Assembly: GCF_003967515.1 (NCBI RefSeq)
Contig: NZ_BIFQ01000001.1
Coordinates: 5,208,001-5,272,000, forward strand
Length of the DNA stretch: 64,000 nucleotides
Reading direction: 5' to 3'
Source: Dictyobacter aurantiacus
GTDB taxonomy: Bacteria; Chloroflexota; Ktedonobacteria; Ktedonobacterales; Ktedonobacteraceae
Below, one piece after another: positions 2,006 through 56,679 of the stretch (the stretch's first letter is position 1; the number at the start of each line of letters is the position of its first letter). Below the pieces are notes generated by a model. It was given only the letters and a program-made list of their open reading frames with translations. It ran no database searches and was not told the DNA's origin. The position numbers and the translations under genes were made by a program.

Positions 2006-5000
2006 CTAACTGCTTAGCTTCCACAACTCCACGGATGCGTTTATTGTAGGATTTGAGCCTCCAATATTCTCAGGAAGTGTAACCTCACCACTCGAAGTAT
2101 TTACAACAGTCAGAACATCGTTAGCTTCCAACCTTACTATTGCTTCACCAATAGTTAACTTTGTTGTATCATCCGCACCAAATGTAGCAAGAGGTGTTGC
2201 TGTGGTGCTACCGCTATGTTGTACATCAAGGGTGAACTGATTGCCAGCGCCGCCCTGAACTCGAATTTGCACTCTATAGACTCCAGGATCAGTCACTGTA
2301 ATTGCGGAGCTTCCAGCCTCATGCTGAATCCCTGATGTGTTGTCCGCCCTGTTCAAATCGAAGGTTATAGCAGTACCTGCTGGCACATTTAGCTGTTGTG
2401 AAGTGTTATAGATGTCGGCAAACTGCTGCGCGCCTATAGGGCCACTCGGACCAGAAGGACCCTCGGGGCCACTCGGACCAGAAGGACCTTGCGGGCCATC
2501 CTGGCCTTGCGGACCAGGAGGGCCTACCTGGCCTTGAGGACCTTGCGGACCTGTCTCTCCGGTAATGCCTTGCGGGCCAACCGGACCTTGCGGGCCAACC
2601 GGACCCAGGGGACCTTGATCACCTTGAGGACCGGCTGGGCCTTGCGGGCCGGTAGCGCCGGTATCACCCTTGGGGCCTTGCGGGCCAACAGGGCCTAGAG
2701 GACCTTGAATGCCTTGCGGGCCGGTAGCGCCGATATCACCTGCCGGACCTTGCGGGCCCTGGGGACCTTCCAGACCAGTGGCACCCTGGGGGCCAGACGG
2801 GCCGATGTTGCCCTGGGGGCCAGCGGGGCCAGAAGGACCAGAGGGACCGGAAGGACCGATGTCGCCCTGGGGACCAGAAGGACCGATGTCGCCCTGGGGA
2901 CCAGAAGGACCTTGCGGACCAGACGGGCCGATATCACCCTGAGGGCCAGACGGGCCGATGTCGCCTTGCGGACCGGAAGGACCGATGTCGCCTTGCGGAC
3001 CGGAAGGACCTTGCGGGCCAGACGGGCCGATATCACCCTGAGGGCCAGACGGGCCGATATCACCTTGCGGGCCAGATGGGCCGATGTCGCCCTGAGGACC
3101 CGAAGGACCTTGCGGACCAGACGGGCCGATATCACCCTGAGGGCCAGACGGGCCGATGTCACCTTGAGGGCCGGAAGGGCCAATGTCGCCTTGGGGACCG
3201 GAGGGACCGATATCACCCTGCGGGCCAGACGGGCCGATATCACCCTGAGGGCCAGACGGGCCGATGTCACCTTGAGGGCCGGACGGACCGATGTCACCTT
3301 GCGGACCGGAAGGACCGACGTCGCCTTGGGGACCGGAAGGACCGATATCACCCTGGGGGCCAGACGGACCGATGTCACCTTGAGGGCCGGACGGACCGAT
3401 GTCACCTTGGGGACCGGAAGGACCGACGTCGCCTTGGGGACCGGAAGGACCGATATCACCCTGGGGGCCAGACGGACCGATGTCACCCTGAGGGCCAGAA
3501 GGACCTTGCGGACCAGACGGGCCGATATCACCCTGGGGGCCAGACGGGCCGATATCACCTTGCGGGCCAGATGGGCCGATGTCGCCCTGAGGACCGGAAG
3601 GACCTTGCGGGCCAGACGGGCCGATATCACCCTGCGGGCCAGACGGGCCGATGTCACCTTGAGGGCCGGACGGACCGATGTCACCTTGCGGACCGGAAGG
3701 ACCGATGTCGCCCTGAGGACCCGAAGGACCTTGCGGACCAGACGGGCCGATATCACCCTGGGGACCAGACGGGCCGATATCACCCTGAGGGCCAGACGGG
3801 CCGATGTCGCCCTGAGGACCCGAAGGACCTTGCGGACCAGACGGGCCGATATCACCCTGAGGGCCAGACGGGCCGATGTCGCCCTGAGGGCCAGACGGGC
3901 CGATATCACCCTGAGGGCCAGACGGGCCGATGTCACCTTGCGGACCGGAAGGACCGACGTCGCCTTGCGGACCCGAAGGACCTTGCGGGCCAGACGGGCC
4001 GATATCACCCTGAGGGCCAGACGGGCCGATGTCACCTTGAGGGCCAGACGGGCCGATGTCGCCCTGGGGACCGGAAGGACCGATGTCGCCCTGAGGGCCA
4101 GAAGGACCTTGCGGACCAGACGGGCCGATATCACCCTGAGGGCCAGACGGGCCGATATCACCTTGCGGGCCAGATGGGCCGATGTCGCCCTGAGGACCCG
4201 AAGGACCTTGCGGGCCAGACGGGCCGATATCACCCTGAGGGCCAGACGGGCCGATGTCACCTTGAGGGCCAGACGGGCCGATGTCGCCCTGGGGACCGGA
4301 AGGACCGATGTCGCCCTGAGGGCCAGAAGGACCTTGCGGACCAGACGGGCCGATATCACCCTGAGGACCGGAGGGGCCAATGTCGCCCTGGGGACCGGAA
4401 GGACCGATATCACCTTGCGGACCAGACGGGCCGATGTCGCCCTGGGGACCAGACGGACCGATGTCGCCCTGAGGGCCAGAAGGACCTTGCGGACCAGACG
4501 GGCCGATATCACCCTGAGGGCCAGACGGGCCGATATCACCTTGCGGGCCAGATGGGCCGATGTCGCCCTGAGGACCGGAAGGACCTTGCGGGCCAGACGG
4601 GCCGATATCACCCTGCGGGCCAGACGGGCCGATATCACCCTGAGGGCCAGACGGGCCGATATCACCTTGCGGACCGGAGGGACCGATGTCACCTTGCGGG
4701 CCAGACGGGCCGGTGTGACCTTGTGGACCTTGCGGGCCTAGCGGGCCAGCAGGGCCAGCAGGGCCCGTAGATCCTTGCGGGCCAACCGGACCTTGCGGAC
4801 CAGTATCACCCTTGGGGCCAGCAGGGCCAGCTTCGCCTTGCGGGCCTTGAGGACCAGTTGCCCCTTCTTGACCTGAAGGACCTTGCGGACCCGTTCCGCC
4901 AGCGGGACCTTGCGCGCCAGTAGGGCCTTGAGGTCCAACGGGACCCAGGTTACCTTGTGGACCTTGAGGCCCCGCTGGTCCGGCTGGGCCTTGAGGTCCA

Positions 5001-5359
5001 GTGGGGCCTTGCGGTCCAGGTGGGCCAGATGGGCCAGATGGGCCAGATGGTCCTTGCTGGATGACATCGGTAATGAGTGGCTGACTTTCATCCAAGAGGT
5101 TGGAATCGAGTGCGGATGTTTGTGGTGTCGTGTTGGCATTGGGGGAGTGCTGAATGCGTTGCTGCTCCCCGGAGGTGCTATGCATGATGTGCGTGCGCTG
5201 CTGCCCATGAGTGCTCCGCAATGCCTTTGCTGCATCGGCATGAGCACTGTGCATGGGTATCGTGAGCAGCGTTCCCGCAACCAGCACCAAACCGACCAGG
5301 CATCTGTCTAGCGGGGGGCATTTGCGCGGCGGCCAGCGGCGGCGATCCACCTTTGTCAT
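2006..5359 (-). CDS. secreted collagen-like protein with BclA/C1q-like C-terminal head
   Basis: A 1117-residue protein. It has a signal peptide (RRR-rich start, then [21 protein letters not shown]), a short linker, about 290 Gly-X-Y triplets and a roughly 140-residue head. The middle of the triplet region is an array of GPSGPQGDI nonapeptides broken by GPSGPQ hexapeptides. The head ([29 protein letters not shown]) resembles the trimerising TNF/C1q-like domain of Bacillus BclA, so a trimeric surface or spore-coat fibre is likely. The start at 5359 is chosen over an upstream ATG because AGGAAGGA precedes it and a signal peptide follows. The same N-terminus and upstream DNA recur in the paralogue at 6161-7174. 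Confidence 0.85.
2840..4720 (-). repeat. 27-bp tandem repeats coding for GPSGPQGDI
   Basis: Several dozen 27-bp units with occasional 18-bp insertions (GPSGPQ) form higher-order blocks of about 100-200 bp that are almost identical to each other. The repetition keeps all frames open, so long ORFs appear on both strands here; only the minus-strand collagen frame has a signal peptide and a folded head. Unit number is expected to vary between strains through slippage or unequal recombination. Confidence 0.9.
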
Positions 5360-5752
5360 AGATGCTATTCCTTCCTGTGTGAAGCCTGAAGGGTGTGTGG
5401 GCCATCCAGGCTTGCCGAACGGAATAAACAAAATACGTGGAACGAACATATAAGAGAAATTTCAGCATTCAGATAAATATTATCTAAAAGTGTTTCTCAT
5501 GTATTAATTATATATAGTGTAGAAAACGAAATTTTTGGATGATATATGTTTTAATATTACAAATGTAGAAATTTTGCATATGGGGATGTAAATATCGAGC
5601 ATAAATAGGAGCGGTTCTAGGGCGGTAAAACGAGCATGGGTACATGGAAATAGGTCGCGCTATGTGATGGATTATCTTAGACAGTATTTGATTCTCATAA
5701 ATATCGCCTACAACCCGCATGAGCTTTCGCATTTGCCATGCTTAGAAGTTCG
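5360..5752. other. AT-rich upstream region of the large collagen gene
   Basis: No convincing gene. The first roughly 130 bp upstream of the start are closely matched upstream of the second collagen gene (7175-7320), so this is probably the shared promoter and 5' leader. The rest is AT-rich and carries no ORF with a ribosome site. Confidence 0.5.
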
Positions 5753-6160: not shown

Positions 6161-7174
6161 TCATGGTCTCGGTTCGTTTTCTAGAAAGCTATTCACGCCG
6201 TCGTATCTCCCATCTATCCATGGTGCGGCAGATGAATCATACGGCCAATGTCTATAATGCCGAGATGACCTGTGACCTCGAAAATGCCTTGGGAACCGGC
6301 AATACCTATAATGCCGAAAGCTAATCCCACAAACCGGTTCAGGAATCACAATAGGAACCCGCAAAATAATGATCTGGGGAGGGCCAGCAGAGCCAGCAGA
6401 GCCAGCAGGACCGGCAGGACCTTGTGGGCCTTGTGGGCCTTGTGGGCCTTGTGGGCCTTGAGGACCGGCAGGGCCTGTCCCACCAGTATTGCCCCTAAGG
6501 CCTTGCAGACCTTGCAGACCTTGCAGGCCTTGAGGACCTTGAGGTCCAGAGGGGCCGGCAGGTCCAGAGGGGCCAGCAGGGCCAGGGGGACCCCCTGCAC
6601 TACCTTGAGGACCAATCGGGCCTTCAGGTCCCGCAGGACCAATCGGGCCTTGCGGACCTTGCGGACCTTGCGGGCCAGTAGCACCAGCAAAGCCTTGAGG
6701 GCCAGCAGGGCCAGTCGCGCCAGTAGGGCCAGTTGCCCCTTGAGGACCTTCAGGACCTTGCGGGCCCGTTCCACCAGCGGGGCCAGCAGGGCCTATGGGA
6801 CCTTGCGGTCCAACCGGACCCAGAGGGCCTTGCGGACCTTGTGGTCCAGGAGGTCCAGGAGGGCCTTGCTGGGTGACATGGGTAATAATGAGTGGCTGAC
6901 TTTTGTTCACGAGGATGGAATTGAGTATGGGTGTTTGTGGCATCGTGTGGGCATTGAGGGAGTGTTGAATGCGTTGCTGCTCCCCAGAGGTGCTGTGCAT
7001 GATGTGCGTACGCTGCTGCCCATGGGTGCTCTGCCACGTCCTTATAGCATTGGCATGAGCACTATGCATAGGTATTGTGAGCAAGGCTCCCACAACCAGC
7101 AGCGAACCGGCCAGGCGCCTGTCTAGCGGGGGGCATTTGCGCGGCAGCCGGCGGTGGCGATCCACTTTTGTCAT
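6161..7174 (-). CDS. secreted collagen-like protein, short paralogue with a His/Arg/Tyr-rich tail
   Basis: A 337-residue protein. Its start, signal peptide ([21 protein letters not shown]) and upstream DNA are nearly the same as in the collagen gene at 2006-5359. About 60 Gly-X-Y triplets follow, more varied than in the paralogue. In place of the BclA-like head it ends with about 75 residues rich in His, Arg and Tyr (for example [16 protein letters not shown], then [11 protein letters not shown]). That tail is either a distinct surface domain or sequence read out of frame after a deletion. The start at 7174 is supported by GGAAGGA nine bases upstream and by alignment with the paralogue. Confidence 0.8.
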
Positions 7175-7399
7175 AGATGCTATTCCTTCCTGTATGAAGC
7201 CTGAAGGGTAAGTGAGCTGGTCAGGCTTGTCGAATGGAATAAACAAAATACGTGGAACAAACATATAAGAGAAATTTTCAGCATTCAGGTAACTATTCGC
7301 TAAAAAGTGCTCTTCATGTATTAATTATAGCTCATGTAGAAAATGAAGGTTTTGGATACATATTTGAATTTCATCAATTATGTGGCAGCCGGGGGGTCC

Positions 7400-24456: not shown

Positions 24457-26682
24457 ATGTCTGGAGCGCAACAAGAGAATCTGGTCGGCAGGTATCTAGG
24501 TAACTATCGGCTGGTTCAACTGCTGGGGTCCGGTGGTTTCGCCCAGGTCTACCTGGGCATTCATCGACACCTGGAGACGCCGGCGGCGATCAAAGTTTTG
24601 CATACGCAGGTTAAGGATCAGGAGCAGCAGAGCTTCTTGCGGGAGGCGCGTATGATCGCTCGCCTGCAGCATCCCCATATCGTGCGCATCCTGGAATTTA
24701 ACATCGAAGACGAGATGCCTTATCTTGTGATGCAGTATTCCGCCAGTGGCACGCTGCGCCAATATTTTCCCCGTGAACAGGCTGTGCCGCTGGAGCGCTG
24801 CCTGCCCTATCTCAAGCAGGTGGCCTCGGCGCTGCAGTACGCGCATGACCACAGGGTGATCCACTGCGACGTCAAGCCAGAGAATATGCTGCTGGATGAA
24901 AAAGGAGACGTTTTCCTCAGCGATTTTGGGATAGCGACGCAGGCACGCAGTTCGCGTTCGGTGACAATCTCCGATGTGATCGGGACGGTGCGTTATATGG
25001 CGCCCGAGCAGCTACGTGGCAAGCCGCGTCCCGCCAGCGATCAGTACGCACTGGCGATCATTGCCTATGAGTGGCTCTGCGGCCAGCTGCCGTTCCAGGG
25101 GAAGGAGTACCTCGCCATCGCCAGGCAGCATCTGACGGTCCCGCCCCCCTCGCTTCGGGAGCACGGCATCGCTATCTCCGCCAGCATCGAACAGGTCATC
25201 CTGACCGCGCTGGCCAAAGATCCCCATCAGCGCTATGGGCAGGTCCAGGATTTCGTGGAGGCCCTGGAGGAGGCGCTGCGTTCGGGTCGCTATATCGCGC
25301 CGGACTCCGATCGATGGCAACGGCGGGATCTAGCGTTATTGTCATCTTCCCGCATTGGAGCAGGTGCAAACACAGCTGTTCTCACCTCCTCTCAGTCATA
25401 TCTCACCGTGCCGGACCCGCATATTCCGCCCGAGGATCTCACAGAAGCACCCACAGACCGGGTTGCCTCCATCCCTACCGGGGGCGGCGCGCCGCTGACC
25501 GGGCCGACGACGGCGAACACACCCGGCAAGCGCGTCTCGCGGCGCGCCACGCTTCTCGGCCTCGGCGCGGCTGGTATCCTGGTACTTGGCGGCGCCGGGC
25601 TGGCATGGAGAGAACTGGCCCCCAACCTTGCCGCCCCGGTGAGCCATTCCCGGCATCCCGCGCCGACCACATCAAGCCTCCCGCCGGCCACACCAGATCC
25701 CGTGCCGACCACGCCACGCGCCACACTCCTGTATACCTACCAGGCGCAGAATATGGCTATCTCGGCCGTTTCCTGGTCTCCTGACGGCCGATATATCGTT
25801 TCTTCATCCTCGGCTGGCACCGTCAATAAGCAAGTTCCCGCAGACAATGTACAGGTCTGGGAGGCCCGGACGGGGAAGCTGTCCTGGAAAGCATCAATAG
25901 GGTCGCCCGTTATCGCCGCCGCCTGGGCCCCTGATGGCCATGCTATTGTGGTTGAGGGCGAAGTTCTTGCCGATAATGTGTTAGACCTGACGACGTTATT
26001 GGGCGTGGATACGGGCCAGGCCATCTCTCATGAGGATCACGGGACGGCGGTTGACGCCAACGGCAACAATATGATCGGCGACGCCTACTGCGTTACCTGG
26101 TCGGCTGATGGGAAGCACCTGCTGATCGGGTATCAGGGCGAGGTGGGTATCTGGACCGGGGCCGCCAATGACTGGCCCGTCCTGTATCGGGTTGGAGATA
26201 AGCAGAAGCAGATCACTTCGGTGGCCTGGTCGCCCGATGGGAAGTATATTATCGGCGGGGTCAATAGCGGCTATGTGTATCAGTGGAACGTTGGTGACGC
26301 GGAGAAGATCGCGTCCACCTATCAAATGAACCTGCCCAATGTGTTAGCGGTGGCCTGCTCGCCCGACAGTCAGTATATCGCCGCCGCCAACGTGGCGGCG
26401 GTCCAGATCTGGGATAGCCAGGGGGGTCTGAGCTACCAGAAGAGCTATCTGACCTATGCCGCCCCCATCGCCTGGTCGCCCGATGGCAAATATATCGCGT
26501 CCGCGCATAGCGATCAGGCAGATTTTAGCATCGCCATCTGGGAGGCGCGCACTGGCAGACAGGTCAGCACGTGTGGCGGTCATACGGCCGCGCTCACCTC
26601 ACTGGCCTGGTCGAAGCGGGGTGATATGCTGGCCAGTGGCAGCCAGGACAAAACGGTCCGCGTATGGACGTTCCAGGCATAG
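24457..26682 (+). CDS. membrane-anchored Ser/Thr protein kinase with C-terminal WD40 propeller
   Basis: A 741-residue protein. The PknB-type kinase domain is at about residues 15-275: glycine loop GSGGFAQVYLG, AIKVL, catalytic VIHCDVKPENMLL (Cys in place of Arg of HRD), DFGIAT, and APEQL. A Ser/Thr/Pro-rich linker and one membrane helix (LLGLGAAGILVLGGAGLAW, about 365-383) follow, then WD40-like repeats (VSWSPDGRYIVSS, SVAWSPDGKYIIGG, SLAWSKRGDMLASG) on the outer face. The propeller probably senses a ligand or protein. The gene is followed after 31 bp by a paralogue. Confidence 0.9.
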   Translation: MSGAQQENLVGRYLGNYRLVQLLGSGGFAQVYLGIHRHLETPAAIKVLHTQVKDQEQQSFLREARMIARLQHPHIVRILEFNIEDEMPYLVMQYSASGTLRQYFPREQAVPLERCLPYLKQVASALQYAHDHRVIHCDVKPENMLLDEKGDVFLSDFGIATQARSSRSVTISDVIGTVRYMAPEQLRGKPRPASDQYALAIIAYEWLCGQLPFQGKEYLAIARQHLTVPPPSLREHGIAISASIEQVILTALAKDPHQRYGQVQDFVEALEEALRSGRYIAPDSDRWQRRDLALLSSSRIGAGANTAVLTSSQSYLTVPDPHIPPEDLTEAPTDRVASIPTGGGAPLTGPTTANTPGKRVSRRATLLGLGAAGILVLGGAGLAWRELAPNLAAPVSHSRHPAPTTSSLPPATPDPVPTTPRATLLYTYQAQNMAISAVSWSPDGRYIVSSSSAGTVNKQVPADNVQVWEARTGKLSWKASIGSPVIAAAWAPDGHAIVVEGEVLADNVLDLTTLLGVDTGQAISHEDHGTAVDANGNNMIGDAYCVTWSADGKHLLIGYQGEVGIWTGAANDWPVLYRVGDKQKQITSVAWSPDGKYIIGGVNSGYVYQWNVGDAEKIASTYQMNLPNVLAVACSPDSQYIAAANVAAVQIWDSQGGLSYQKSYLTYAAPIAWSPDGKYIASAHSDQADFSIAIWEARTGRQVSTCGGHTAALTSLAWSKRGDMLASGSQDKTVRVWTFQA

Positions 26683-26713
26683 ATCTCAAGCAGGGAAGAG
26701 GAGTTTTAGCGCT

Positions 26714-28756
26714 GTGAATACATATAGCGGTCAGCAGCTTGGCAATTATCGTCTGATCCGTCCTTTAGGACGCGGAGGATTCGCGGAGGTCTATCTGGGG
26801 GTGCATCGCTACCTGGAAACGCTGGTCGCTATTAAAATCCTGCACTCAAAAAATCTGGATCGAGCGATCTTCTTGCAGGAGGCGCGCCTGATCGCGCATC
26901 TGAACCACCGTCACATCGTTTCCGTGCGCGAGTTCGATATTAAGAACGATATCCCCTTTCTGGTGATGGATTATGTCCAGGGGGGCACCCTGCGCCATCA
27001 CTGTCCACGAGGCACGTGCCTCCCCCTGGGACAGGTGGTCGCTTATGTGAAGCAGATCGCCTCGGCCCTGCACTATACGCACCAGCAAGGGATCGTGCAC
27101 GGCGATGTGAAGCCGGAAAACGTGCTGGTGGCGACGGATGGCCATGTGCTGCTGAGCGATTTTGGCCTGGCCGGCATCATCAGTATGGCCGAGGCGCGGG
27201 ATGGTGGTGTCTTGATAGGGACCGTCGATTATATGGCCCCGGAACAGTTTCAGCACCGCCTGCTGCCCGCCAGCGATCAATATGCACTGGGGATCATGGC
27301 CTATGAATGGCTGAGCGGCCGGCCACCGTTTGCGGGCTCATACATCGAGGTGGCTGTCCAGCATGCGCTGGAACCGGCGGCATCGCTGCTGGACAGCGTC
27401 GCCGAGCTTCCGGCAGAGGTCGATGAGGTGATCCTTCGCGCGCTGGCCAAAGAGCCCGCAGACCGCTTTGCCAGCGTTGAAGCTTTCGCTGAGGCTCTGG
27501 AGGCGGCCGCGATGGTCGCCCAGGGGATGGGGAATACTCCACAGGCAACGCCACATCGGCGGGGAACTACCATCCTGCTAGAGTCACAGCCAGCGCCAGC
27601 CTCGCCGTCACCGGTTTTGTCAAAGCTCTTTTCACGGCGTAACTTATTCGGCCTGCTGGCCGGCGTCGTCATTGGAGCCGGTGCCGTCGTCACCGAGAGC
27701 ATCCTGCGGGACCGACCAGAGCCGCACAATTCGGTGGTAAAGCCAGTGGTAAAGCAGACGGCGAAGCCAGCCGCGACGGCGACACCACGCGAGGCATTAC
27801 TGTATGTCTATCATGGCTCCCCACACTCTGTCGATGCGCTGGCCTGGTCGACCAATGGGCAGTATATCGCATCAGGAGGAGGCAAGCAGGAGCAGGGGCA
27901 GCAAAGGACAGATCAAACCTACCCTGTTCAGGTCTGGAAAGCGGCGACCGGCCAGACGATCAGCATATTCAATGGGCATGTAGATGTGATTTATGCGCTG
28001 GCCTGGTCCCCCGATGGCACCAGGATCGCTTCTGGTGGTACGCGCATGATGGCCGCGTGGGCAGCTAATACAGGCGTTGTCATTGGCCAGTATACAGCGA
28101 CGCAGGCATATTTTCAGTGTAACGATATCTTCTGGAGCTCGGATAATCAGAGCGTCATTGTAACCGATGATTATGGCAGCGTCTATAAGCTGGTGCCCAC
28201 TGATCTGCAGACATTCCCCGGCAATGCAACTGTCCTCTATGGGATGCCCGTTGATAGCCAGGGCGATTATGTGAGCACCTCACGCTGCGCGCCCGATCAG
28301 CAATACATTTCCATGCTTGAGCGACAGGGCATTCGTGTGATCAGGATCGCGGATAAGCAGCCGCTGGCTTACTTCCAGAAACTAGCTGGAGCGCCTTTCC
28401 AGCGCTCGACGACTCCCGACGCCGTCTTGAGCCTCTGGTCGCCTGACAGCACGCGGATCGCCGCCGGTGGCAAGGCTGGTCCATTCTATGTCTGGGAGGC
28501 GACTTCTGGCGAGGTCGTGCTCACATTTGAGGGGGACACGGCGATCACGGCGGCCGGCTGGTCCGCCGACGGCAGATATATCGCCTCCTCTGGCAGCTCC
28601 AGGCAGATTCAGATCTGGGAGGTCGCGACCGGCAACGTCATGCAGCGGCACGTGCGCAAGAGCACCTCTATCGTGCGCAGCCTCTCCTGGTCGCCAGACG
28701 GCCAGACGATCGCCTGCGGCTGCCAGGACGGCACGGTCGAACTCTGGCGTCGATAA
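26714..28756 (+). CDS. membrane-anchored Ser/Thr protein kinase with C-terminal WD40 propeller (paralogue)
   Basis: A 680-residue protein with the same layout as its upstream neighbour: kinase domain (GRGGFAEVYLG, IVHGDVKPENVLV with Gly replacing Arg of HRD, DFGLAG, APEQF), a membrane helix near LFGLLAGVVIGAGAVV, and WD40 repeats (ALAWSPDGTRIASG, SLSWSPDGQTIACG). Start is GTG at 26714 with GAGGAG ten bases upstream; codons before it overlap the previous gene and are not homologous to kinases. Tandem duplication of the whole receptor is likely. The small gene at 28915 may be cotranscribed. Confidence 0.88.
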   Translation: MNTYSGQQLGNYRLIRPLGRGGFAEVYLGVHRYLETLVAIKILHSKNLDRAIFLQEARLIAHLNHRHIVSVREFDIKNDIPFLVMDYVQGGTLRHHCPRGTCLPLGQVVAYVKQIASALHYTHQQGIVHGDVKPENVLVATDGHVLLSDFGLAGIISMAEARDGGVLIGTVDYMAPEQFQHRLLPASDQYALGIMAYEWLSGRPPFAGSYIEVAVQHALEPAASLLDSVAELPAEVDEVILRALAKEPADRFASVEAFAEALEAAAMVAQGMGNTPQATPHRRGTTILLESQPAPASPSPVLSKLFSRRNLFGLLAGVVIGAGAVVTESILRDRPEPHNSVVKPVVKQTAKPAATATPREALLYVYHGSPHSVDALAWSTNGQYIASGGGKQEQGQQRTDQTYPVQVWKAATGQTISIFNGHVDVIYALAWSPDGTRIASGGTRMMAAWAANTGVVIGQYTATQAYFQCNDIFWSSDNQSVIVTDDYGSVYKLVPTDLQTFPGNATVLYGMPVDSQGDYVSTSRCAPDQQYISMLERQGIRVIRIADKQPLAYFQKLAGAPFQRSTTPDAVLSLWSPDSTRIAAGGKAGPFYVWEATSGEVVLTFEGDTAITAAGWSADGRYIASSGSSRQIQIWEVATGNVMQRHVRKSTSIVRSLSWSPDGQTIACGCQDGTVELWRR

Positions 28757-44828: not shown

Positions 44829-47800
44829 TCAGTCCACCGTCCCACTTCGTTCATCGTCTTCGATACCTGCCTCCAGCGAAAGAATCTGAGCCAGCGCATC
44901 ATCTGCTGCATCCCGCACCGCCTTGATGCTATCCTGGCGCATGGCGAGCAAACGGAGCAGAGCGACATCTGGAATATTGCGCCGGATGTTGCCCAATGCC
45001 TCAGCTGCTTTGATGCGTACCTGCCAGTGAGGCCAATCCAGCAACTGCGTCACGCTGTCAAGCAGATCCGGCTCGCCTTTGCTCAAGAACCCGATAATCT
45101 CAGCTCTCCACCCCTGGGTGAGCGAACCAAGATATTTGCCTGATGGTTGACCCTTGAGGATGGCCTCCGCTTCAGCGAATACTTCACGCACCATTTCATC
45201 GTCCTCTCTTCCCTTGAGTGCTTTGAGTGCCGCCGCTCTGACATCGATATCCTCATCACATAACGCGACAATAAGTGAGGCTGTTGGGACACGCGCACCG
45301 AGTTTGCTCAGCGCTTCTGTTACTACCCTGCGCATATCCCTCTCAGGATCATACAGAGCCTCTATCAACGGCTCGACGGGCGCTCGTTCTCCTAGCTCTC
45401 CTAATGCATACGCTGCTACTCTGCGCACATCCTCCTCAGGGTCATGCAGCGCTTCTACCAACGGCTCGACGGGCGCTCGTTCGCCTAGCTCTCCTAACGC
45501 ATACGCTGCTACTCTGCTCACAAGCATCTCAGGATCATGTAGCGCTTCTACCAACGGCTCGACGGGCGCTCGCTCTCCTAGCTCTCCTAACGCATACGCT
45601 GCGGCCTTGCGCACATCCCCCTCAGGATTATGCAGAGCTTCCACTAACAGCTCGACGGGCGCTCGTTCGCCTAGCTTTCCTAATGCTTCAACTGCGGCCT
45701 CGCGCACAAACAGCTCAGGATCATGCAGAGCTTCCACCAACGGCTCGACGGGCGCTCGTTCGCCTAGCTCTCCTAATGTTCGGGCTGCTGACGCGCGCAC
45801 AAGCAACTCAGGATCATGTAGCGCTTCTACCAACGGCTCGACGGGCGCTCGTTCGCCTAGCTTTCCTAATGCTTCAGCTGCTGCCTCGCTCACAAGCAGA
45901 TAATGATCATGCAGAGCCTCTATCAACGGCTCGATGGGCGCTCGTTCTCCTAGTTTTCCTAATGCTCTTGCTGCTGCCTCGCGCACATCCCCCTCAGGGT
46001 CATGCAGCGCCTCTATCAACGGCTCGACGGGCGCTCGTTCTCCTAGCTCTCCTAACGCATACGCTGCTTCCATGCGCACATCCCCCTCAGGGTCATACAG
46101 AGCATCTATCAACGGCTCGACGGGTGCTCGTTCTCCTAGCTCTCCCATTGCTCTTACTACTACGCTACGTCTAAATTCGTCAGGATCATCCACATATTCC
46201 ATCAATAGTTCTGCGGGTATTTTCTTTCCTACCTCCCATAATATGTATGCCGCTGAATTTTGTATAATATAGCTTTTATTAAGCAACATACTTATAAGTC
46301 TCTCTATTGGTGCCTCTTCTCCTAATGCCCCGAATACTTTCACTACCGCACTGCGCACGCTCCACTCAGGATCAGATAACAGTGCCAGCAGTGGTTCTAC
46401 AGGTGTTTGCTTTCCTAAATCCATGAAGCACTCAACAGTTGCTGTGCGCATTTTTGCATCAGTATCCTGTAGATAGATCAGAATTTTTTCAATAGCTTCT
46501 GGTATTTTTTTCTGTGTTAACAATTGTAAAGCTAAAAATTGCGTCACTTTCCCTTCACGATCGACCAACGCTCCTCTCTTTAGTAAAGAGATTTCCTCTC
46601 CTACCTTCCCTAATGCATACGCTGCTCGTCTGCGCACAGACGTGTCAGGATCGTGCAAAGCCTCCACCAAGGGCTCTATCGGCGCTCGCTCGCCTACTTT
46701 CTCTAATGCAAAGGTTGCTTCATATCTCACCAAAGCATCAGAATCATGCAGAGCCTCCACTAACGGCTCTATCGGCGCGCGCTCTCCTACCTTCCCCAAC
46801 GCCTCGGCGGCTGCCTGGCGTAAAAAGCTTTTAGAATCATGCAGGGCCTCCACCAAGGGCTCTATCGGCGCGCGCTCTCCTACTTTCCCTAATGCATACG
46901 CTGCCGCCGCGCTCACATATATTCCAGGATCATGCAAAGCTTCTACCAACGGCTCGACGGGCGCTCGCTCGCCTAGCTCTCCTAATGCGTCCAATGCTGC
47001 TTTGAGCACCTCCCAATCAGGATCATTCAAAGCTTCTACCAACGGCTCGATTGGCGCTCGCTCGCCTAGCTCTCCTAATGCATACGCTGCGGCCTTGCGT
47101 ACGTCCGCCTCAGGATCGTGCAGCGCTTCTACCAACGGCTCGATTGGTGCTCGCTCGCCTAGCTCCCCTAACGCTTCGGCTGCTGCCCTACGCACACCCC
47201 TCTGAGGATCGTGCAAAGCCTCCAGGAACGGCTCGACGGGCGCTCGTTCTTCTAGCTTCTTTAACGCACGAGCAGCACTAGATCGCATCCTGGAATCTTT
47301 ATCATAAAGAGCAATTTCAAGCAACGTCTGTGGCAACCCACTTGGTTTTAATTCTGCTAGCACTTCTACAGCACAGCGACGCACATCGCTATACGTATGC
47401 CCTAGAGCTTGCTGCAATCTCTGTATCACCACCTCCGTCGTTTCATCGCTCAGATAAGCAAAATCCTCTGTCAACTGCTCAAGCCTTCGCCGCCTCAAAT
47501 ACTGCTGCTGTTTCGCAGCGCTCAGCAGCTCATTCACCCACCGCTCTGCAATCTCCCCCTCCAGCTGTGCAACCAGCCTATGCTCCCCTGTCGAACTTCC
47601 TACCAGTTCGACCAGGGATTTCAGCGCCAATACAAACCCCAGCAGCCCTGGATCGCCTTCCGCCGTTGTCTGCTGGTTCATCAATGCATGTATCCAGCGC
47701 ACGGCTTCCTGGATACCCCGCTTGTCGGGGAGCTGGGCGAGCACGCCGACCATCAGCCGCAGCACTCCGGTCCAGCGACTGTAGGTGCGTTTGCTCCAGG

Positions 47801-49601
47801 CCAACGCCCATGCCTCTTCTCGTTTCTGCACATGCGGATCCGTCAGGCGGCGGGCCAATTCGGTTGCGGCCAGGTATTCCTGAAAGGTCTGGTGCCTGAA
47901 GCTGTAGGTGTCGTGGGCCAGGAGCTCCATCATGCCCGAATCGATGATCTGCTGCGTGACCTGCGTTGTCTCATCCCAGGGGTGCTGCTGCACCACGCCC
48001 AGAAACTCCAGCAGGTCATCAAGCGTGTAGATGTGCCCCTTCTTTTGATGCAGCCAGAGGGCCAGCGAGCTCAAGACTGGCAGCAATTGCTCCTGGCGTA
48101 AGCGGTTGGGCTCGCGCATGGTCAGGACTGCTTCAATTACCTCGCGGTAGAGCATGGCGCGCGTGGGGGGGAGCCCGCCCGTCTGAAAGTAGACGATGGC
48201 AGCCAGACTGAAGAGCAGCGGATTCTTGCCCCATGCCGCTGCCTGGGGATGCTGTTCCAACGCCGCCACAAACGCAGTGGGGGAGGGTTCTCCGGTCTCG
48301 GAGGCAGGCAACAAGCGCTGTAATTCGGAGAACAGGTGGAGCGTGAGGTCCAGCCGCAGCGTGGCATTCATTGGCAGCAGCTCCCACTCACGAAACTGGC
48401 CTTGCGTGAACTGGCCACCTTTGTATTCGGTGAAACGCGACCCGATCACCCAGCTGTTGCCCTTCTCCGTGGCCCAGAGGTTGATATGCTTGATGATCTT
48501 CGGGCGATGCTGCGGGGCCACTTCGTCCAGGCCGTCCAGGCAGAAGAAGGCGTGGCCCGCTTCCCTGGCTTTCCACAGCAGATCGGCAAAGCGATGCTCG
48601 ATGTTGAGGTCCTCGACCTGCTCATGCAGATACTGTTGCAGCGTTTTGCCCGAACGCGCCAGGTCCGCCAGGGAGACGAAGATAGGCAGCGGAGCCGATG
48701 GATTGAACAGCGCGTCCCTGGCCGCTGTCCCAACGAGATGCTTGAGCGTGGTGGTCTTGCCCGTGCCCGGCCCTCCTAAAATGACGATCCGTTTCTGCGC
48801 GCTCTTTTCGAGGGCTTCTTCACTGGTGTTGACGGTGATGTCTGCCGGCTCAGCGGCTCGGGCGGAAAGGTCATGCAGAGTGGGCTCGTCCAGGTAGCGG
48901 GAGAACTTGCCGGGCTGCCTGGGGCGCTGCTCTCGCTCCAGGTCTTCTGCCGCTAAGGGGTTCTGACGCAAGCGCAGGGGCTGGAAGATGGCTGGTAAGG
49001 AAAAGCCCTCGGTCGGGCCAACGGGCAGACGCACGGCGCTGTAGAGCCGAAAGAGGTGCTCTAGATAGCGGGTGCGCGCGTGTTGGTAGAGAGGGGATGA
49101 GAGGTCGATGCCTGGCGAGGCGGTCAGTTGCTCATGCGAGGGTGACCACTCGTCGATGACGTTCTTGATGCCCTGCACGATATCGACAAGGGCGGCCTCC
49201 TGGTCCTTCCAGGTTTTGGCCGGCTTTCCGTTCGTTGGCAGCGGACGCAGGTGGCCGAAGGGGGTGCTCTGCCAGTCGGTGGAACGTACGAGGATGGGGA
49301 TCACCCGTGCGTACCCCTGCTCGTGTCGTTGCAGAGCCTGTGCCAATTCGTTGCCATAGCAGTGCTCGGAGGCGATGAAGTCCGGGCTGACCAGTAAGAG
49401 AATGAGATGGGCCTCTTCCAGTTGCCGCTCGATCTCTCGCGCAGGCTCTGCACCCGCTATCACCTGTTGCCGGTGCCAGCTGGTGATGATGCCCTGCCGC
49501 TGTAGGGCGGTAAGATGGATATCCAGTTTTTTGCGCCACTCGTCATCTTGTTGCGCGTACGAATAGAAGAGCCGCAAGCCGCTTGTAACGTGTTCGTCCA
49601 T
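44829..49601 (-). CDS. TIR-NACHT-HEAT STAND NTPase (NLR-like, probable anti-phage protein)
   Basis: A 1590-residue protein. The TIR domain covers about residues 7-155 (LFYSYAQQDDEW; probable NADase Glu at 85 in EHCYGNEL). The NACHT NTPase has P-loop GGPGTGKTT at about 276-284, Walker B FFCLDGLDEV at about 352-361, and FRHQTFQEYLAA. About 20 HEAT/PBS-lyase-like repeats of 31 residues follow (GERAPVEPLVEALHDPE, then VR-AAAYALGEL). In such proteins the repeats recognise a trigger, NACHT oligomerises and TIR depletes NAD+. Defence is inferred from architecture. The start is the second Met (49601) because GAGGA is nine bases away; the first ATG abuts it. No TIR partner gene adjoins. Confidence 0.9.
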   Translation of the reverse strand: MDEHVTSGLRLFYSYAQQDDEWRKKLDIHLTALQRQGIITSWHRQQVIAGAEPAREIERQLEEAHLILLLVSPDFIASEHCYGNELAQALQRHEQGYARVIPILVRSTDWQSTPFGHLRPLPTNGKPAKTWKDQEAALVDIVQGIKNVIDEWSPSHEQLTASPGIDLSSPLYQHARTRYLEHLFRLYSAVRLPVGPTEGFSLPAIFQPLRLRQNPLAAEDLEREQRPRQPGKFSRYLDEPTLHDLSARAAEPADITVNTSEEALEKSAQKRIVILGGPGTGKTTTLKHLVGTAARDALFNPSAPLPIFVSLADLARSGKTLQQYLHEQVEDLNIEHRFADLLWKAREAGHAFFCLDGLDEVAPQHRPKIIKHINLWATEKGNSWVIGSRFTEYKGGQFTQGQFREWELLPMNATLRLDLTLHLFSELQRLLPASETGEPSPTAFVAALEQHPQAAAWGKNPLLFSLAAIVYFQTGGLPPTRAMLYREVIEAVLTMREPNRLRQEQLLPVLSSLALWLHQKKGHIYTLDDLLEFLGVVQQHPWDETTQVTQQIIDSGMMELLAHDTYSFRHQTFQEYLAATELARRLTDPHVQKREEAWALAWSKRTYSRWTGVLRLMVGVLAQLPDKRGIQEAVRWIHALMNQQTTAEGDPGLLGFVLALKSLVELVGSSTGEHRLVAQLEGEIAERWVNELLSAAKQQQYLRRRRLEQLTEDFAYLSDETTEVVIQRLQQALGHTYSDVRRCAVEVLAELKPSGLPQTLLEIALYDKDSRMRSSAARALKKLEERAPVEPFLEALHDPQRGVRRAAAEALGELGERAPIEPLVEALHDPEADVRKAAAYALGELGERAPIEPLVEALNDPDWEVLKAALDALGELGERAPVEPLVEALHDPGIYVSAAAAYALGKVGERAPIEPLVEALHDSKSFLRQAAAEALGKVGERAPIEPLVEALHDSDALVRYEATFALEKVGERAPIEPLVEALHDPDTSVRRRAAYALGKVGEEISLLKRGALVDREGKVTQFLALQLLTQKKIPEAIEKILIYLQDTDAKMRTATVECFMDLGKQTPVEPLLALLSDPEWSVRSAVVKVFGALGEEAPIERLISMLLNKSYIIQNSAAYILWEVGKKIPAELLMEYVDDPDEFRRSVVVRAMGELGERAPVEPLIDALYDPEGDVRMEAAYALGELGERAPVEPLIEALHDPEGDVREAAARALGKLGERAPIEPLIEALHDHYLLVSEAAAEALGKLGERAPVEPLVEALHDPELLVRASAARTLGELGERAPVEPLVEALHDPELFVREAAVEALGKLGERAPVELLVEALHNPEGDVRKAAAYALGELGERAPVEPLVEALHDPEMLVSRVAAYALGELGERAPVEPLVEALHDPEEDVRRVAAYALGELGERAPVEPLIEALYDPERDMRRVVTEALSKLGARVPTASLIVALCDEDIDVRAAALKALKGREDDEMVREVFAEAEAILKGQPSGKYLGSLTQGWRAEIIGFLSKGEPDLLDSVTQLLDWPHWQVRIKAAEALGNIRRNIPDVALLRLLAMRQDSIKAVRDAADDALAQILSLEAGIEDDERSGTVD
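45340..47240 (-). repeat. 93-bp repeats coding the HEAT units
   Basis: Two blocks (about 45340-46160 and 46620-47240) of near-identical 93-bp units are separated by about 450 bp of diverged HEAT sequence. Within a unit, the helix-A half coding GERAPVEPLVEALHDP is almost fixed. The variable positions cluster just after HDP, the likely binding ridge. The pattern suggests recent expansion or homogenisation with selection on the variable sites. Confidence 0.85.
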
Positions 49602-49827
49602 CGATAGCATTCCTCGTTTCTATTTTGGACAAGGGACGTATTGTCAGCACGTAGACCAACGCTCCTATTTCTCTCTTTCTGCCTGGCTGGTCCTCCACTA
49701 CCTATCCTCCCTGCGTGCGCCACCATGGGATCAGCAGGTCCAGGCACCAGTCGTGTCTCATACGCTCCTCCTGTCTCCATTGCTCGCTGCAGCTCGTCGT
49801 AGAGCTCCAGAATGACCTGCTCCTTGA
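49602..49827. other. upstream region of the TIR-NACHT gene
   Basis: It likely carries the promoter. On the minus strand an open frame (DDYALIKEQVILELYDELQR, then AMETGGAYETRLVPGP) continues out of frame from the fragment to the right. It looks coding but is not recognised and has no start. Confidence 0.35.
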
Positions 49828-53424: not shown

Positions 53425-53690
53425 AACATATCCCCTCTATATCATTAATGTACATGTGTCGTATCGATATTTTACACGATGTATACGTGTCAGATCGAAC
53501 GTAGGTTTGAATTGCTCCATCTGAACCATATCATAGCCATTGAACTTGAAAAATTAATGTAAATGGCATTGCCTGAGAGCAATTCGTGAGGGTGATGTGC
53601 TATGATACACATGATCATCCCATGGATTTGGTATCCAACACCTTCAATGTGAGAAAGAAACAAAATGCGCCGTGAGTCGCCATCGTCGCC
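53425..53690. other. AT-rich upstream region of the S9 peptidase gene
   Basis: No gene. It probably contains the S9 peptidase promoter. Confidence 0.4.
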
Positions 53691-53880
53691 GTAGGTTCGG
53701 CCCTTGCGGCCGATTTCCGTTCCGCGTATGAAACGCCCGGCGTAGGTTCGGCCCTTGCGGCCGATTTCCGTTCCGCGTACGAAATGCCGTGGTCAAACGC
53801 GAATGGTGATGCGAACGAGTGTTACGTGTGGAAGGGATATGATCGGGTAGGAAAAATCGGCCGCAAGGGCCGAACCTACG
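53691..53880. repeat. element B, two direct copies and one inverted copy
   Basis: A 51-bp unit (GTAGGTTCGGCC-cttgc-GGCCGATTTCCGTTCC, then GCGTAYGAAA) starts at 53691 and at 53742, nearly identical. An inverted copy is at 53851-53880. The unit also contains GAAACGCCC, which recurs near the copies at 56760 and 58610. The group sits just upstream of the acuB-like gene. Confidence 0.85.
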
Positions 53881-53939
53881 ACGGTGGTGGTGGTCGTTGC
53901 GAGCAGCCAGGTGCAATGATGCGTTTTGGGAGGTGCGCC

Positions 53940-54650
53940 GTGATTGTCCAGGAAATTATGTCAACGAAATTAACGACGGTCGAGCCCGATGATACGCTGG
54001 CTCATGCCGCCAATCTGTTTCGTCAATATAGCTTTCATCATTTGCCGGTGACGCGTCGTATCTATCAGACCAATGGTGAGGGGGTGCGGGTGGCGCTGCT
54101 GACCTGCGAGGGCCTGCTATACGCGCAGGATATCGACCTGGCGGTGGCGGTGTCCGAGGGAGATGAGCAGGGGAGGCAGCCGTGGCAGGAGCGGCGTGTG
54201 GTCGAGGTGATGCATAGCGCCGCCATTCGTGTGACGCCTACGACCAGCGTGGCGGCGGCGGCCCAGCTGCTGGTTGAGCGCGGCCTGAACTGCCTGCCGG
54301 TGGTGGAATATAAACTGGTAGATGGCGAGACGCGCACCATCCTGGTCGGCCTGCTGACGCGCAGCGATCTGCTGATCGCGCTCTCGCGGGCCATGGGTGC
54401 CTTTGAGCCGGGTATGCAGCTCGACATCGCGCTACCCCACGGCGACATGACGCCGTTGGCGCGCACGCTCCAGCTGGCGGCTGAGCTGCACGTCCACATC
54501 CGCAGCGTCCTGGCGGCCCCGCAGAGCGACGGCACCCTTTCAGTCGCCACCGTGCGCCTGGGCACGATCAATCCCACGCCCTTGCTGCTGCGCCTGAAAC
54601 AAGAAGGCATCCAGTACACCTTTGGCGGTCCCTTGCTGGCGTCCCATTAG
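53940..54650 (+). CDS. acuB: AcuB-like protein with paired CBS domains and a C-terminal ACT-like region
   Basis: A 236-residue protein. The first CBS domain (VQEIMSTKLTTVEPDDTLAH, FHHLPVTRR, LYAQDIDLA) and the second (VVEVMHSAAIRVTPTTSVAA, LNCLPVVEYK, GLLTRSDLLIALSRA) bind adenine nucleotides in the family. The last 65 residues have the length and strand order of the AcuB ACT domain. Start GTG 53940 has GGGAGG six bases upstream. It lies 22 bp before an AcuC-AcuA fusion gene, as in the acuABC operon of Bacillus. The symbol rests on domain order and context; the protein may pass an energy signal to its partner. Confidence 0.78.
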   Translation: MIVQEIMSTKLTTVEPDDTLAHAANLFRQYSFHHLPVTRRIYQTNGEGVRVALLTCEGLLYAQDIDLAVAVSEGDEQGRQPWQERRVVEVMHSAAIRVTPTTSVAAAAQLLVERGLNCLPVVEYKLVDGETRTILVGLLTRSDLLIALSRAMGAFEPGMQLDIALPHGDMTPLARTLQLAAELHVHIRSVLAAPQSDGTLSVATVRLGTINPTPLLLRLKQEGIQYTFGGPLLASH

Positions 54651-54672
54651 TAGATCGGAGAGGCAAAGAGCT

Positions 54673-56679
54673 ATGGCAGAGCAAAAATCCCCCAATCCCA
54701 ATCATCGAGCGCGCCTCATATTTGATCCGCAGGAATTGAACTATGACTTCGGCGAGCAGCATCCCCTCAATCCCGGCCGGTTGCGGGCCCTGGTTGATCT
54801 GCTGGCTTGCAGCGGTCTCTGGGATGTCAATGATGAGCGCACGCGCCTGGGCCTGCGTCCCGCCTCGATTGAGCAGCTGAGCCTGGCCCATGATCCCGCC
54901 TACATCGCGGCCGTGCAGCGGCTCGGCGAGCCGGACGTCGCCGACAGGACGCCGGAAGAGGAGGAGCAGCGGCGCGAGCTGGCGCAGCGCTACGGCTTTG
55001 GGGATAGCGATACGCCGCCGGTTCCGGGCATGCACGAGGTCTCGGCCATGATCGCCGGTGGCTCGCTGGTGGCGCTCAGCGCCGTCATGGGACTGCCCGA
55101 AGGGGGCACCTTCGCCTCTGAAGAGGAACGTCCTCTGCACGTTTTCCATCCGCAGGGGGGACTGCACCACGCCTGGTCCGATCGCGCCTCCGGCTTCTGC
55201 ATCTACAACGACGCGGCGGTGGCCATCGCGCACGTCCTGCGGGCCAGCGAAGCCAAGATCCTCTACATCGATTTCGACGCCCACCACGGCGACGGCGTGC
55301 AGCGCGCCTTCTACGATGATCCGCGCGTCATGACCATCTCGATCCACGAGACCGGCCGCTACCTCTTCCCCGGCAGCGGCGATGTGCTGGAGATGGGCAA
55401 CGGCAGCGGACGCGGCTACTCGATCAACGTGCCGCTGGAGCCGTTTACCGAAGACGACAGCTATATCGAGACCATGGACCCCCTGCTGTCGCAGCTGGTG
55501 ACGGCCTTCGCCCCCGACGTGATCGTGAGCGAGCACGGCTGCGACACCCACGCCTGGGACCCGCTGACGCACCTCAATCTGACCATGCGCGGCATCGGCG
55601 CGCAGATGAAGCTGGCCCATCAACTGGCCCATACCTACTGCGATGGACGCTGGGTGGCCCTCGGCGGCGGCGGCTACGCCCTCTACAGCGTGGTCCCACG
55701 CGCCTGGAGCCGGCTGTGGGCCGAGATGTCCGAGCAAGAACTGCCCGAGCAGCTGCCGCAGGAATGGATCGAGCGCTGGCAGCCCCTCTGGCAGGCCGCT
55801 CTGGAGCGTGAGCAGCAGGGTCAGCAGATCATGGGCAAGCAGCCCACGCAGGAGGAGTTCCCCACCACCTTCAACGACCGTCCTGAGCTCTTTCCACCGC
55901 AGCCGCGCCGCTGGGAGATCAACCACATCAACCGGCAGACTGTCGGTCTGGTGCGCCACCTGCTGATCCCATCGTCGATCCGTCAGGCCTTCCCCATCGC
56001 GCGCCACCGCTCGCCGCTCTCGGACCTCTTCGACCTGCTGCACCTCAACCGCAGCTCGACGCCCTCGCGCATCCGCACCCTGCAGACCATGCGCGGACCC
56101 GTTCTGCTGCGCGACTTCAGCCCGCCATCCCTGATTGAGCGCCTGCGGCCCGATCACGGCCTCAGCTCGTTCGCCCGCCTGCCCGAGCGCGAGCACCAGC
56201 TGCTGCTCGACATCGCCCGCAGTCCCGACTGCGCCCTCACCGTCGCCCACACCCCGGCCGGCGAGATCATCGGCCAGGTCACTATCGCCCCCGCCGACGA
56301 ATGGTGGGAGGGTGTCGAAAACCTCTACGAGGTCGCCATCGAGGTCAGCTCCGACTGGCGCGGCCTCGGCATCGCGCGCGAGATACTGGCCTTTGCCCTT
56401 GAACTCGACGCCAAAGAGGACATGATCTTCTTCGCCATCGGCCTCTCCTGGCACTGGGACGCCGAAGGGCTCGGCATCTCCACCTTCCGTTACCGCGAAC
56501 TGATCAAGCATCTCTTCGGCACCCAGGGCTTCGTCGAGTACGCCACCACCGAGCCCAACGTCAGCATGGAGCCCGCCAACGTCCTCGTCGCCCGCATCGG
56601 GGACCGCGTCGACCCGCGCGTCTCCAAACAATTTCTCAACCGCCTCATCCGCTCGACCGCCTTCACCCCGCATTGGTAA
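54673..56679 (+). CDS. acuC-acuA: fusion of AcuC-type deacetylase and AcuA-type acetyltransferase
   Basis: A 668-residue protein. Residues about 12-345 are a class I histone-deacetylase fold of the AcuC type: GGLHHAWSD (catalytic His pair 165-166), zinc ligands in IDFDAHHGDG (Asp202, His204) and HGCDTHAWDPLTHL (Asp291), and GGGGY (Tyr335). After a linker, residues about 465-645 match AcuA: WWEGVENLYEVAIEVS, the acetyl-CoA loop DWRGLGIAREIL, SWHWDAEG, and EPANVLVARIGD. In Bacillus, AcuA acetylates and inactivates acetyl-CoA synthetase and AcuC reverses it. Here both activities are on one chain, behind the acuB-like gene. No acetyl-CoA synthetase gene is in the window. Confidence 0.9.
   Translation: MAEQKSPNPNHRARLIFDPQELNYDFGEQHPLNPGRLRALVDLLACSGLWDVNDERTRLGLRPASIEQLSLAHDPAYIAAVQRLGEPDVADRTPEEEEQRRELAQRYGFGDSDTPPVPGMHEVSAMIAGGSLVALSAVMGLPEGGTFASEEERPLHVFHPQGGLHHAWSDRASGFCIYNDAAVAIAHVLRASEAKILYIDFDAHHGDGVQRAFYDDPRVMTISIHETGRYLFPGSGDVLEMGNGSGRGYSINVPLEPFTEDDSYIETMDPLLSQLVTAFAPDVIVSEHGCDTHAWDPLTHLNLTMRGIGAQMKLAHQLAHTYCDGRWVALGGGGYALYSVVPRAWSRLWAEMSEQELPEQLPQEWIERWQPLWQAALEREQQGQQIMGKQPTQEEFPTTFNDRPELFPPQPRRWEINHINRQTVGLVRHLLIPSSIRQAFPIARHRSPLSDLFDLLHLNRSSTPSRIRTLQTMRGPVLLRDFSPPSLIERLRPDHGLSSFARLPEREHQLLLDIARSPDCALTVAHTPAGEIIGQVTIAPADEWWEGVENLYEVAIEVSSDWRGLGIAREILAFALELDAKEDMIFFAIGLSWHWDAEGLGISTFRYRELIKHLFGTQGFVEYATTEPNVSMEPANVLVARIGDRVDPRVSKQFLNRLIRSTAFTPHW

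Follow-up and report, generated by a model that had tools for sequence, protein, structure and literature searches.

How are two enzymes that oppose one another on the same target to be kept in step when they are parts of one polypeptide, and does joining them do more than bring them together? The question is raised by a locus of Dictyobacter aurantiacus (Chloroflexota; Ktedonobacteria), located in a 64,000-nucleotide stretch of contig NZ_BIFQ01000001.1 (positions 5,208,001 to 5,272,000; hereafter the window, in whose own numbering positions are given), where a gene encoding AcuB is followed by one encoding a single-chain fusion of AcuC, a deacetylase, with AcuA, an acetyltransferase. In Bacilli, AcuA acetylates K549 of the acetyl-CoA synthetase AcsA and AcuC reverses this modification (PMC11910552, PMC11255334; these and the other papers are cited here from partial texts). 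From the sequence, and by analogy with these systems, we consider it moderately probable that the fusion acts as a single-chain writer and eraser of acetylation on acetyl-CoA synthetase (Acs), with AcuB inhibiting the eraser in a manner that depends on adenine nucleotides.

The gene arrangement is that of a preliminary description of this DNA, whose coordinates (53940-56679) proved right. The acuB gene (53940..54650, plus strand, GTG start) encodes 236 amino acids, and 22 nt separate its stop codon from the ATG of the fusion gene (54673..56679, plus strand), upstream of which a GGAGAGG motif ends 9 nt before the start. The 668-amino acid product is read from one open reading frame (ORF) with no internal stop, the ORF list starting this frame further upstream, at a TTG (54622). 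On the same strand, the AcuC half (residues 1-430; 54673..55962) and the AcuA half (residues 463-668; 56059..56676) are separated by a linker at about residues 431-462 (55963..56058). Pfam places Hist_deacetyl at residues 30-351 (2.2e-79) and Acetyltransf_1 at residues 501-579 (1.6e-06); an NCBIfam scan of the fusion returned no model at E <= 0.01. The AlphaFold2 model of the whole fusion (alignment of 27 rows) has a predicted local distance difference test score (pLDDT) of 84.3 and a predicted template modelling score (pTM) of 0.82, confidence being lower around the linker (block means of 72-76 for residues 431-470).

Judged by its sequence, the N-terminal half is an AcuC, a class I-like zinc deacetylase, and stands nearer to AcuC than to the two other HDAC-like proteins of the genome. 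Its matches in a PDB sequence search include HDAC2, HDAC1 and HDLP, and a Foldseek search with the whole-fusion model placed HDAC8, HDAC3 and HDAC2 entries at the top, the 50 rows shown being all HDACs or HDAC complexes and none a GNAT. The half is full length, in that its alignment with Anoxybacillus AcuC (392 amino acids) reaches the C-terminal segment PPIPRK before the linker. The residues which, from HDAC8 numbering in part visible in PDB titles, we take to be catalytic or zinc-binding (H165, H166, D202, H204, D291 and Y335) are kept in 26/26 aligned fusions, a set made up of the window, 21 named loci and four others, the frameshifted or truncated L058, L062, L065 and L066 being left out. 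A GRYLF loop (residues 228-232) occurs in the window protein and in Anoxybacillus AcuC and is absent from the two other HDAC-like proteins, and in an AcuC tree the branch splitting those two, set as outgroup, from the remaining 64 rows is supported at 100 (starred). The AcuC-side residues reported to contact AcuB in Geobacillus (Gt) are all kept in the window, F143, R197, Y198, F200 and R362 of the Gt protein, with which the Anoxybacillus numbering fits, corresponding to F175, R229, Y230, F232 and R412; across the aligned fusions R229, F232 and R412 are each found in 25/26 and Y230 in 22/26.

The C-terminal half is best matched by AcuA. A PDB sequence search with it returned only two distinct sequences at E <= 0.01, both acetoin utilization/AcuA proteins (2q04, 7.9e-26; 9g7f, 5.5e-25), and from about residue 463 it aligns lengthwise, tail excepted, with the AcuA proteins of Anoxybacillus and Paenibacillus. 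Alignment with 9g7f equates E557 with E102, the general base of Bacillus subtilis (Bs) AcuA, and W595, inside the WHWD motif at 593-596, with W140; changes at E102, as well as W140A, abolish the activity of BsAcuA (PMC11255334). E557, W593, W595 and R563, the last within the acetyl-CoA loop WRGLGIA starting at 562, are kept in 26/26 aligned fusions, and in an alignment of 20 AcuA rows that includes two from Bacilli the E102 position (E95 there) and W131-D134 are invariant. BsAcuA E135 is not kept, this position being G in the window and E in Anoxybacillus. The preliminary description had credited the deacetylase half with a catalytic histidine pair and zinc ligands and the GNAT half with AcuA-specific segments, and its motifs are all present (GGLHH at 162, DFDAHH at 200, HGCDTH at 288, GGGGY at 331, WHWD at 593, DEWWEGVEN with its WEG, and EPANVLVARIG); loss of either active site, which would have spoken against it, was not seen by residue checks in any of the 26 fusions. 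The match goes beyond chance, as both halves are present in the 25 other aligned sequences, whose identity to the window fusion is 45-85%.

The fusion is a real gene conserved in relatives. A survey of the class covered 47 genomes, of which 29, including that of D. aurantiacus, belong to its family (f1), one to family f2, six to f3 and 11 to f4. Within f1 the fusion is present as one ORF in 23/29 genomes (G031 and G034 have two copies, and G044 a partial second match), and the f2 genome has two copies; none was found in f3 (0/6) or f4 (0/11). A wider survey, with 400 genomes of Chloroflexota that had been drawn from a larger group, added two further full fusions among the matches listed (G217, 50% identity; G175, 49%). 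AcuA was detected at E 1e-15 or better in 32/400 genomes, 26 of which hold an intact fusion, four a broken, remnant or split one (G024, G025, G033, G045) and two only a stand-alone AcuA (G232, G299), so that the search for the same fusion in Chloroflexota that had been proposed as a check returned an intact fusion in 26/400 genomes. A contig scan with patterns built from the window fusion, which reaches close relatives only, found both halves in 23/40 named loci, 21 as one ORF and two frameshifted, all in records named as Ktedonobacterales or as a family or genus of that order, including Dictyobacter, Ktedonobacter, Ktedonospora, Tengunoibacter, Thermosporothrix and Thermogemmatispora; 14 loci, from Actinomycetota, Desulfobacteraceae and Alphaproteobacteria, matched in AcuC only, no match extending past query residue 423. 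Outside Chloroflexota no fusion was seen in this close-relative scan or on plasmids, and no wider genome search was made; among 165 matching plasmid records two carry AcuA, with separate genes in both.

The position of acuB is conserved with the fusion. It adjoins the fusion in 27/29 loci (counting one broken copy twice, in two views, and the G025 remnant), and the distance from its stop to the nearest fusion start codon lies between -26 and +26 nt in the 26 loci scored on the plus strand. The two exceptions are Thermosporothrix hazakensis, where acuB and the fusion share a contig but acuB lies 5.9 kb upstream, and L130, which is cut by a contig end. Broken copies of the fusion occur in three relatives, with an internal deletion (L133), a frameshift (L134) and two frameshifts (L135), and acuB is open in all three; they represent either real decay or sequencing errors.

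In an AcuA tree the fused AcuA domains, all 26 of them, group in one clade spanning four family codes (f1, f2, f55 and f67), with a starred Shimodaira-Hasegawa-like approximate likelihood ratio test (SH-aLRT) support of 96, and the stand-alone AcuA proteins of Ktedonobacteria fall outside it; this tree, like the AcuC tree, was built by a quick method and has long branches (here L136 and L124 among others), where stars are less safe. A single origin of the fusion is thus likely on AcuA, but not proven. Ratios of nonsynonymous to synonymous substitution (dN/dS, Nei-Gojobori) could be computed in 6/8 pairs for the AcuC half (0.04-0.11) and in 5/8 for the AcuA half (0.03-0.12), dS being saturated in the rest and the pairs, which share sequences, not being independent. 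Residues 361-462, which hold the linker, have a dN above that of either half in 8/8 pairs. The stand-alone AcuC of G175 (L103:3452-4690) has as its sister (100, starred) the fused AcuC found in that genome, which suggests that its AcuA half was lost after duplication.

From its sequence and model, the neighbouring AcuB is a protein of two CBS modules and an ACT-like C-terminal domain. Pfam reports CBS in two stretches (4.5e-21), and a PDB sequence search finds the AcuB structures 9s4v (3.6e-17) and 9s4w (6.6e-17), released in 2026. With an AlphaFold2 model of this protein (pLDDT 87.5, pTM 0.68), solved AcuB chains took ranks 1-18 of the 50 rows listed in a fold search, 9s52, 9s4y and 9qs7 being among the best. 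The AcuB proteins of Bacillus and Geobacillus bind adenine nucleotides and inhibit AcuC (PMC13121692, PMC13039410), chiefly through an ACT domain that lies over the active site. The two reports disagree on Ap4A (diadenosine tetraphosphate): in PMC13121692 only AMP-loaded AcuB inhibits AcuC, with a half-maximal inhibitory concentration of 38 nM, whereas in PMC13039410 Ap4A strengthens the inhibition. AcuB was not bound by AcsA in Bacillus pull-downs. Given the synteny and the kept AcuC surface, it is likely, on sequence and analogy, that AcuB controls the deacetylase half of the fusion; of the reading that we favour, this is the weakest part.

As to the target, the genome encodes one acetyl-CoA synthetase above the TIGR02188 cut-off (contig C1, 376293-378125, the single stop counted being that gene's own), which keeps LPKTRSGKIMRR, as do two AcsA proteins of Bacilli, and with it the target motif PKTRSGK. 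The proposal that opposing enzymes of Acs control are fused here thus stands as regards the full-length AcuC and AcuA, their catalytic residues and the lysine motif of Acs, while the activity of either half is something that we infer from sequence.

We would then picture the system as follows. The AcuA half, using acetyl-CoA, would acetylate the catalytic lysine of Acs in the PKTRSGK motif and so switch the enzyme off when acetyl-CoA is plentiful, and the AcuC half would deacetylate it and switch it back on, the two halves keeping separate active sites on either side of the linker. AcuB, presumably cotranscribed with the fusion, would sense adenine nucleotides. At low energy charge AMP-loaded AcuB would block the AcuC half, as the Bacilli data of PMC13121692 suggest, and net acetylation would win; at high energy charge the AcuC half would be free and Acs reactivated. 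The fusion would hold writer and eraser in a 1:1 ratio at the same Acs molecule and, with AcuA placed C-terminally, would leave free the C-terminus that enters Acs in the Bacillus complex. The preliminary description saw in the fusion itself the need for internal control against a futile cycle; we would not attribute that need to the fusion, because the separate enzymes of Bacilli face the same cycle.

Several observations weigh against this reading. In the AcuC tree, which holds 17 of the 26 fusions, a single origin is not apparent: fused AcuC fall into three groups inside a 41-row clade (support 93) to which stand-alone AcuC and proteins of family f22 also belong, starred branches forcing at least two changes. 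The fusion seems dispensable, because some f1 copies are broken, split or missing: G024 and G033 carry frameshifts and G025 an internal deletion, in G045 the halves lie at contig ends, and the fusion is absent from G028 and G029; G025, having lost the fusion, keeps AcuB and Acs. The Bacilli AcuA tail (ending RFMY) is replaced in fused and stand-alone Ktedonobacteria AcuA alike. In the Bacillus complex this tail enters the N-terminal domain of Acs through contacts that are largely main-chain (PMC11910552), so that another tail sequence could serve. The acs gene is not a neighbour; on contig C1 it lies at 0.38 Mb, the fusion at 5.26 Mb. A stand-alone AcuA-like protein (46%) and two sirtuins are encoded in the genome as well, and the fusion is therefore not the sole candidate writer or eraser; the gene for the former (L127:5891-6598, at about 5.196 Mb of C1, near MFS and SDR genes) keeps the E102 position and WHWD, and stand-alone AcuA copies occur in several relatives carrying the fusion. 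Finally, AcuB itself has changed. Of its nucleotide-site positions (H34, R33, R51 and K120 in Bs) H34 is kept, R33 is H, R51 is Q and the K120 position is R (E in Anoxybacillus), and among AcuC-contact positions H86, D89, E92 and W206 are changed, D89/E92/W206 of GtAcuB being T/A/F, and M188 is I. The case for AcuB as controller, the role assigned to it beforehand, thus gains from its place beside the fusion and from the adenylate binding and AcuC inhibition of its Bacilli counterparts, but with D89, E92 and W206 changed such control would need partly other contacts.

A related possibility, that of a two-way switch, is doubtful but worth stating. AceK (isocitrate dehydrogenase kinase/phosphatase), GlnE, GlnD and PFK-2/FBPase-2 are known cases in which opposing activities on one target share a chain under metabolite control; unlike them, the protein described here would act by lysine acetylation and joins two unrelated domains. 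By analogy, nucleotide-loaded AcuB could dock at the C-terminal segment of AcuC and shift both activities in opposite directions. Hydrogen-deuterium exchange (HDX) located AcuB protection at A368-Y379 of Gt AcuC (PMC13039410), and because the aligned segment of the fusion is continuous with the linker that precedes AcuA, an effect of AcuB on both halves is conceivable.

It is rather unlikely that joining the two enzymes has no functional effect, each acting independently as the separate Bacilli proteins do, with co-expression as the sole gain. Such an account would fit the finding of the three genes already together in Anoxybacillus, the broken or missing copies in 5/29 family genomes, the fast change of residues 361-462 with the linker, and the G175 stand-alone AcuC that is sister to its fused paralog. 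Set against these are the persistence of the intact form in 23/29 family genomes, the predominance of intact fusions (26) over stand-alone AcuA alone (2) among the 32 Chloroflexota genomes with AcuA, and the single clade of fused AcuA across f1, f2, f55 and f67.

Two further alternatives are improbable. BsAcuA inhibits AcsA by binding even without the catalytic E102 (PMC11910552), and the AcuA half might accordingly be mainly a docking arm that holds the deacetylase at Acs, or a steric inhibitor of Acs, with acetyl transfer minor. The f22 fused GNAT, in which G replaces E102 and WHWD is lacking in 11/11, is what a docking-only arm could look like; in the lineage of the window, however, the catalytic residues are invariant (26/26), and the C-terminal tail needed in the Bacillus complex is not conserved. 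To a similarly small degree the main substrate may be another acyl-CoA synthetase or other proteins rather than Acs. BsAcuC acts on several substrates (PMC13039410), a second acyl-CoA synthetase of the genome carries LPKTISGKI, many other adenylate-forming matches were obtained in the genome, and acs is not nearby; against this, the catalytic residues of AcuA are conserved, and the motif of Bacilli is present in Acs. An assembly artefact or missed stop is ruled out by the single ORF in 23/29 family genomes and 21 named loci, a generic GNAT by the exclusive match to AcuA structures at E 0.01 with WHWD and the E102 position kept, and decay of one half in the window by the residue checks, low dN/dS and AlphaFold2 model, the GNAT half being confirmed by sequence.

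In another Chloroflexota family, f22, AcuC likewise carries a fused C-terminal GNAT (L085-L092, L094, L096 and L097). The E102 position is G and WHWD has become xERD or xDRD in 11/11 aligned proteins, and its likeness to AcuA lies mostly in the generic acetyl-CoA region, so that a plain AcuA is not supported; it is either a decayed AcuA or another GNAT. This fusion was found in 11/20 f22 stretches, which were chosen partly for long frames, with a profile built from these 11 that left the other nine unmatched, and a fusion of the same type occurs in one named record (L067:1970-4654). With a fused GNAT that has no AcuA catalytic residues, the f22 lineage offers a natural comparison.

Around the locus, the window scan shows a peptidase S9 gene in opposite orientation upstream of acuB and a DDE transposase gene downstream of the fusion, with a hairpin 3' of the fusion whose T tail is on the minus strand. 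The stretch immediately before acuB (53687-53890) has a pair of 51-nt direct repeats (94%) together with a copy in inverted orientation (31-37 nt, 89-97% complementary); these may be hairpins with a regulatory role or a small mobile repeat. Elsewhere the window encodes a 1593-amino acid TIR-NACHT-HEAT repeat protein (44829-49610, minus strand), of an NLR-like type linked to phage defence, two adjacent kinase-WD40 repeat proteins on the plus strand in overlapping frames (24457-26682 and 26456-28756; together 24457-28756), and two collagen triple-helix repeat proteins on the minus strand (2006-5449 and 6161-7264).

Among known systems, Pat/CobB-type control likewise rests on reversible acetylation of the catalytic lysine of Acs, but with an NAD-dependent sirtuin as eraser and separate genes. 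The closest likeness is to acuABC of Bacillus subtilis and Geobacillus, which has the same three proteins and catalytic residues, acuB directly before acuC and the same Acs lysine motif. It differs in that Bacilli have three separate genes with acsA divergent alongside (in the Anoxybacillus plasmid copy; in a Paenibacillus plasmid copy the acu genes are separate and without acuB), whereas here acuC has acuA as its C-terminal half, with acs elsewhere. No report of an AcuC-AcuA fusion was found in the literature searched, outside which fall most subscription journals and bioRxiv preprints, and domain-architecture databases may well hold it; the partial texts of PMC13121692, PMC13039410, PMC11910552, PMC11255334 and PMC11532494 do not report it, and for Chloroflexota the same literature, as far as its texts extend, yielded only an Acs structure (8RPK/8RPL; PMC11255334). 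The parts are known, and their single-chain form is a variant of acuABC without a report in that literature. In the texts cited here, acetylation and deacetylation of acetyl-CoA synthetase are set against each other with separate Bacilli proteins. The fusion, kept across much of one Ktedonobacteria family, would provide a natural 1:1 writer and eraser beside acuB, in which both activities and the effects of AcuB and nucleotides on them may be read together.

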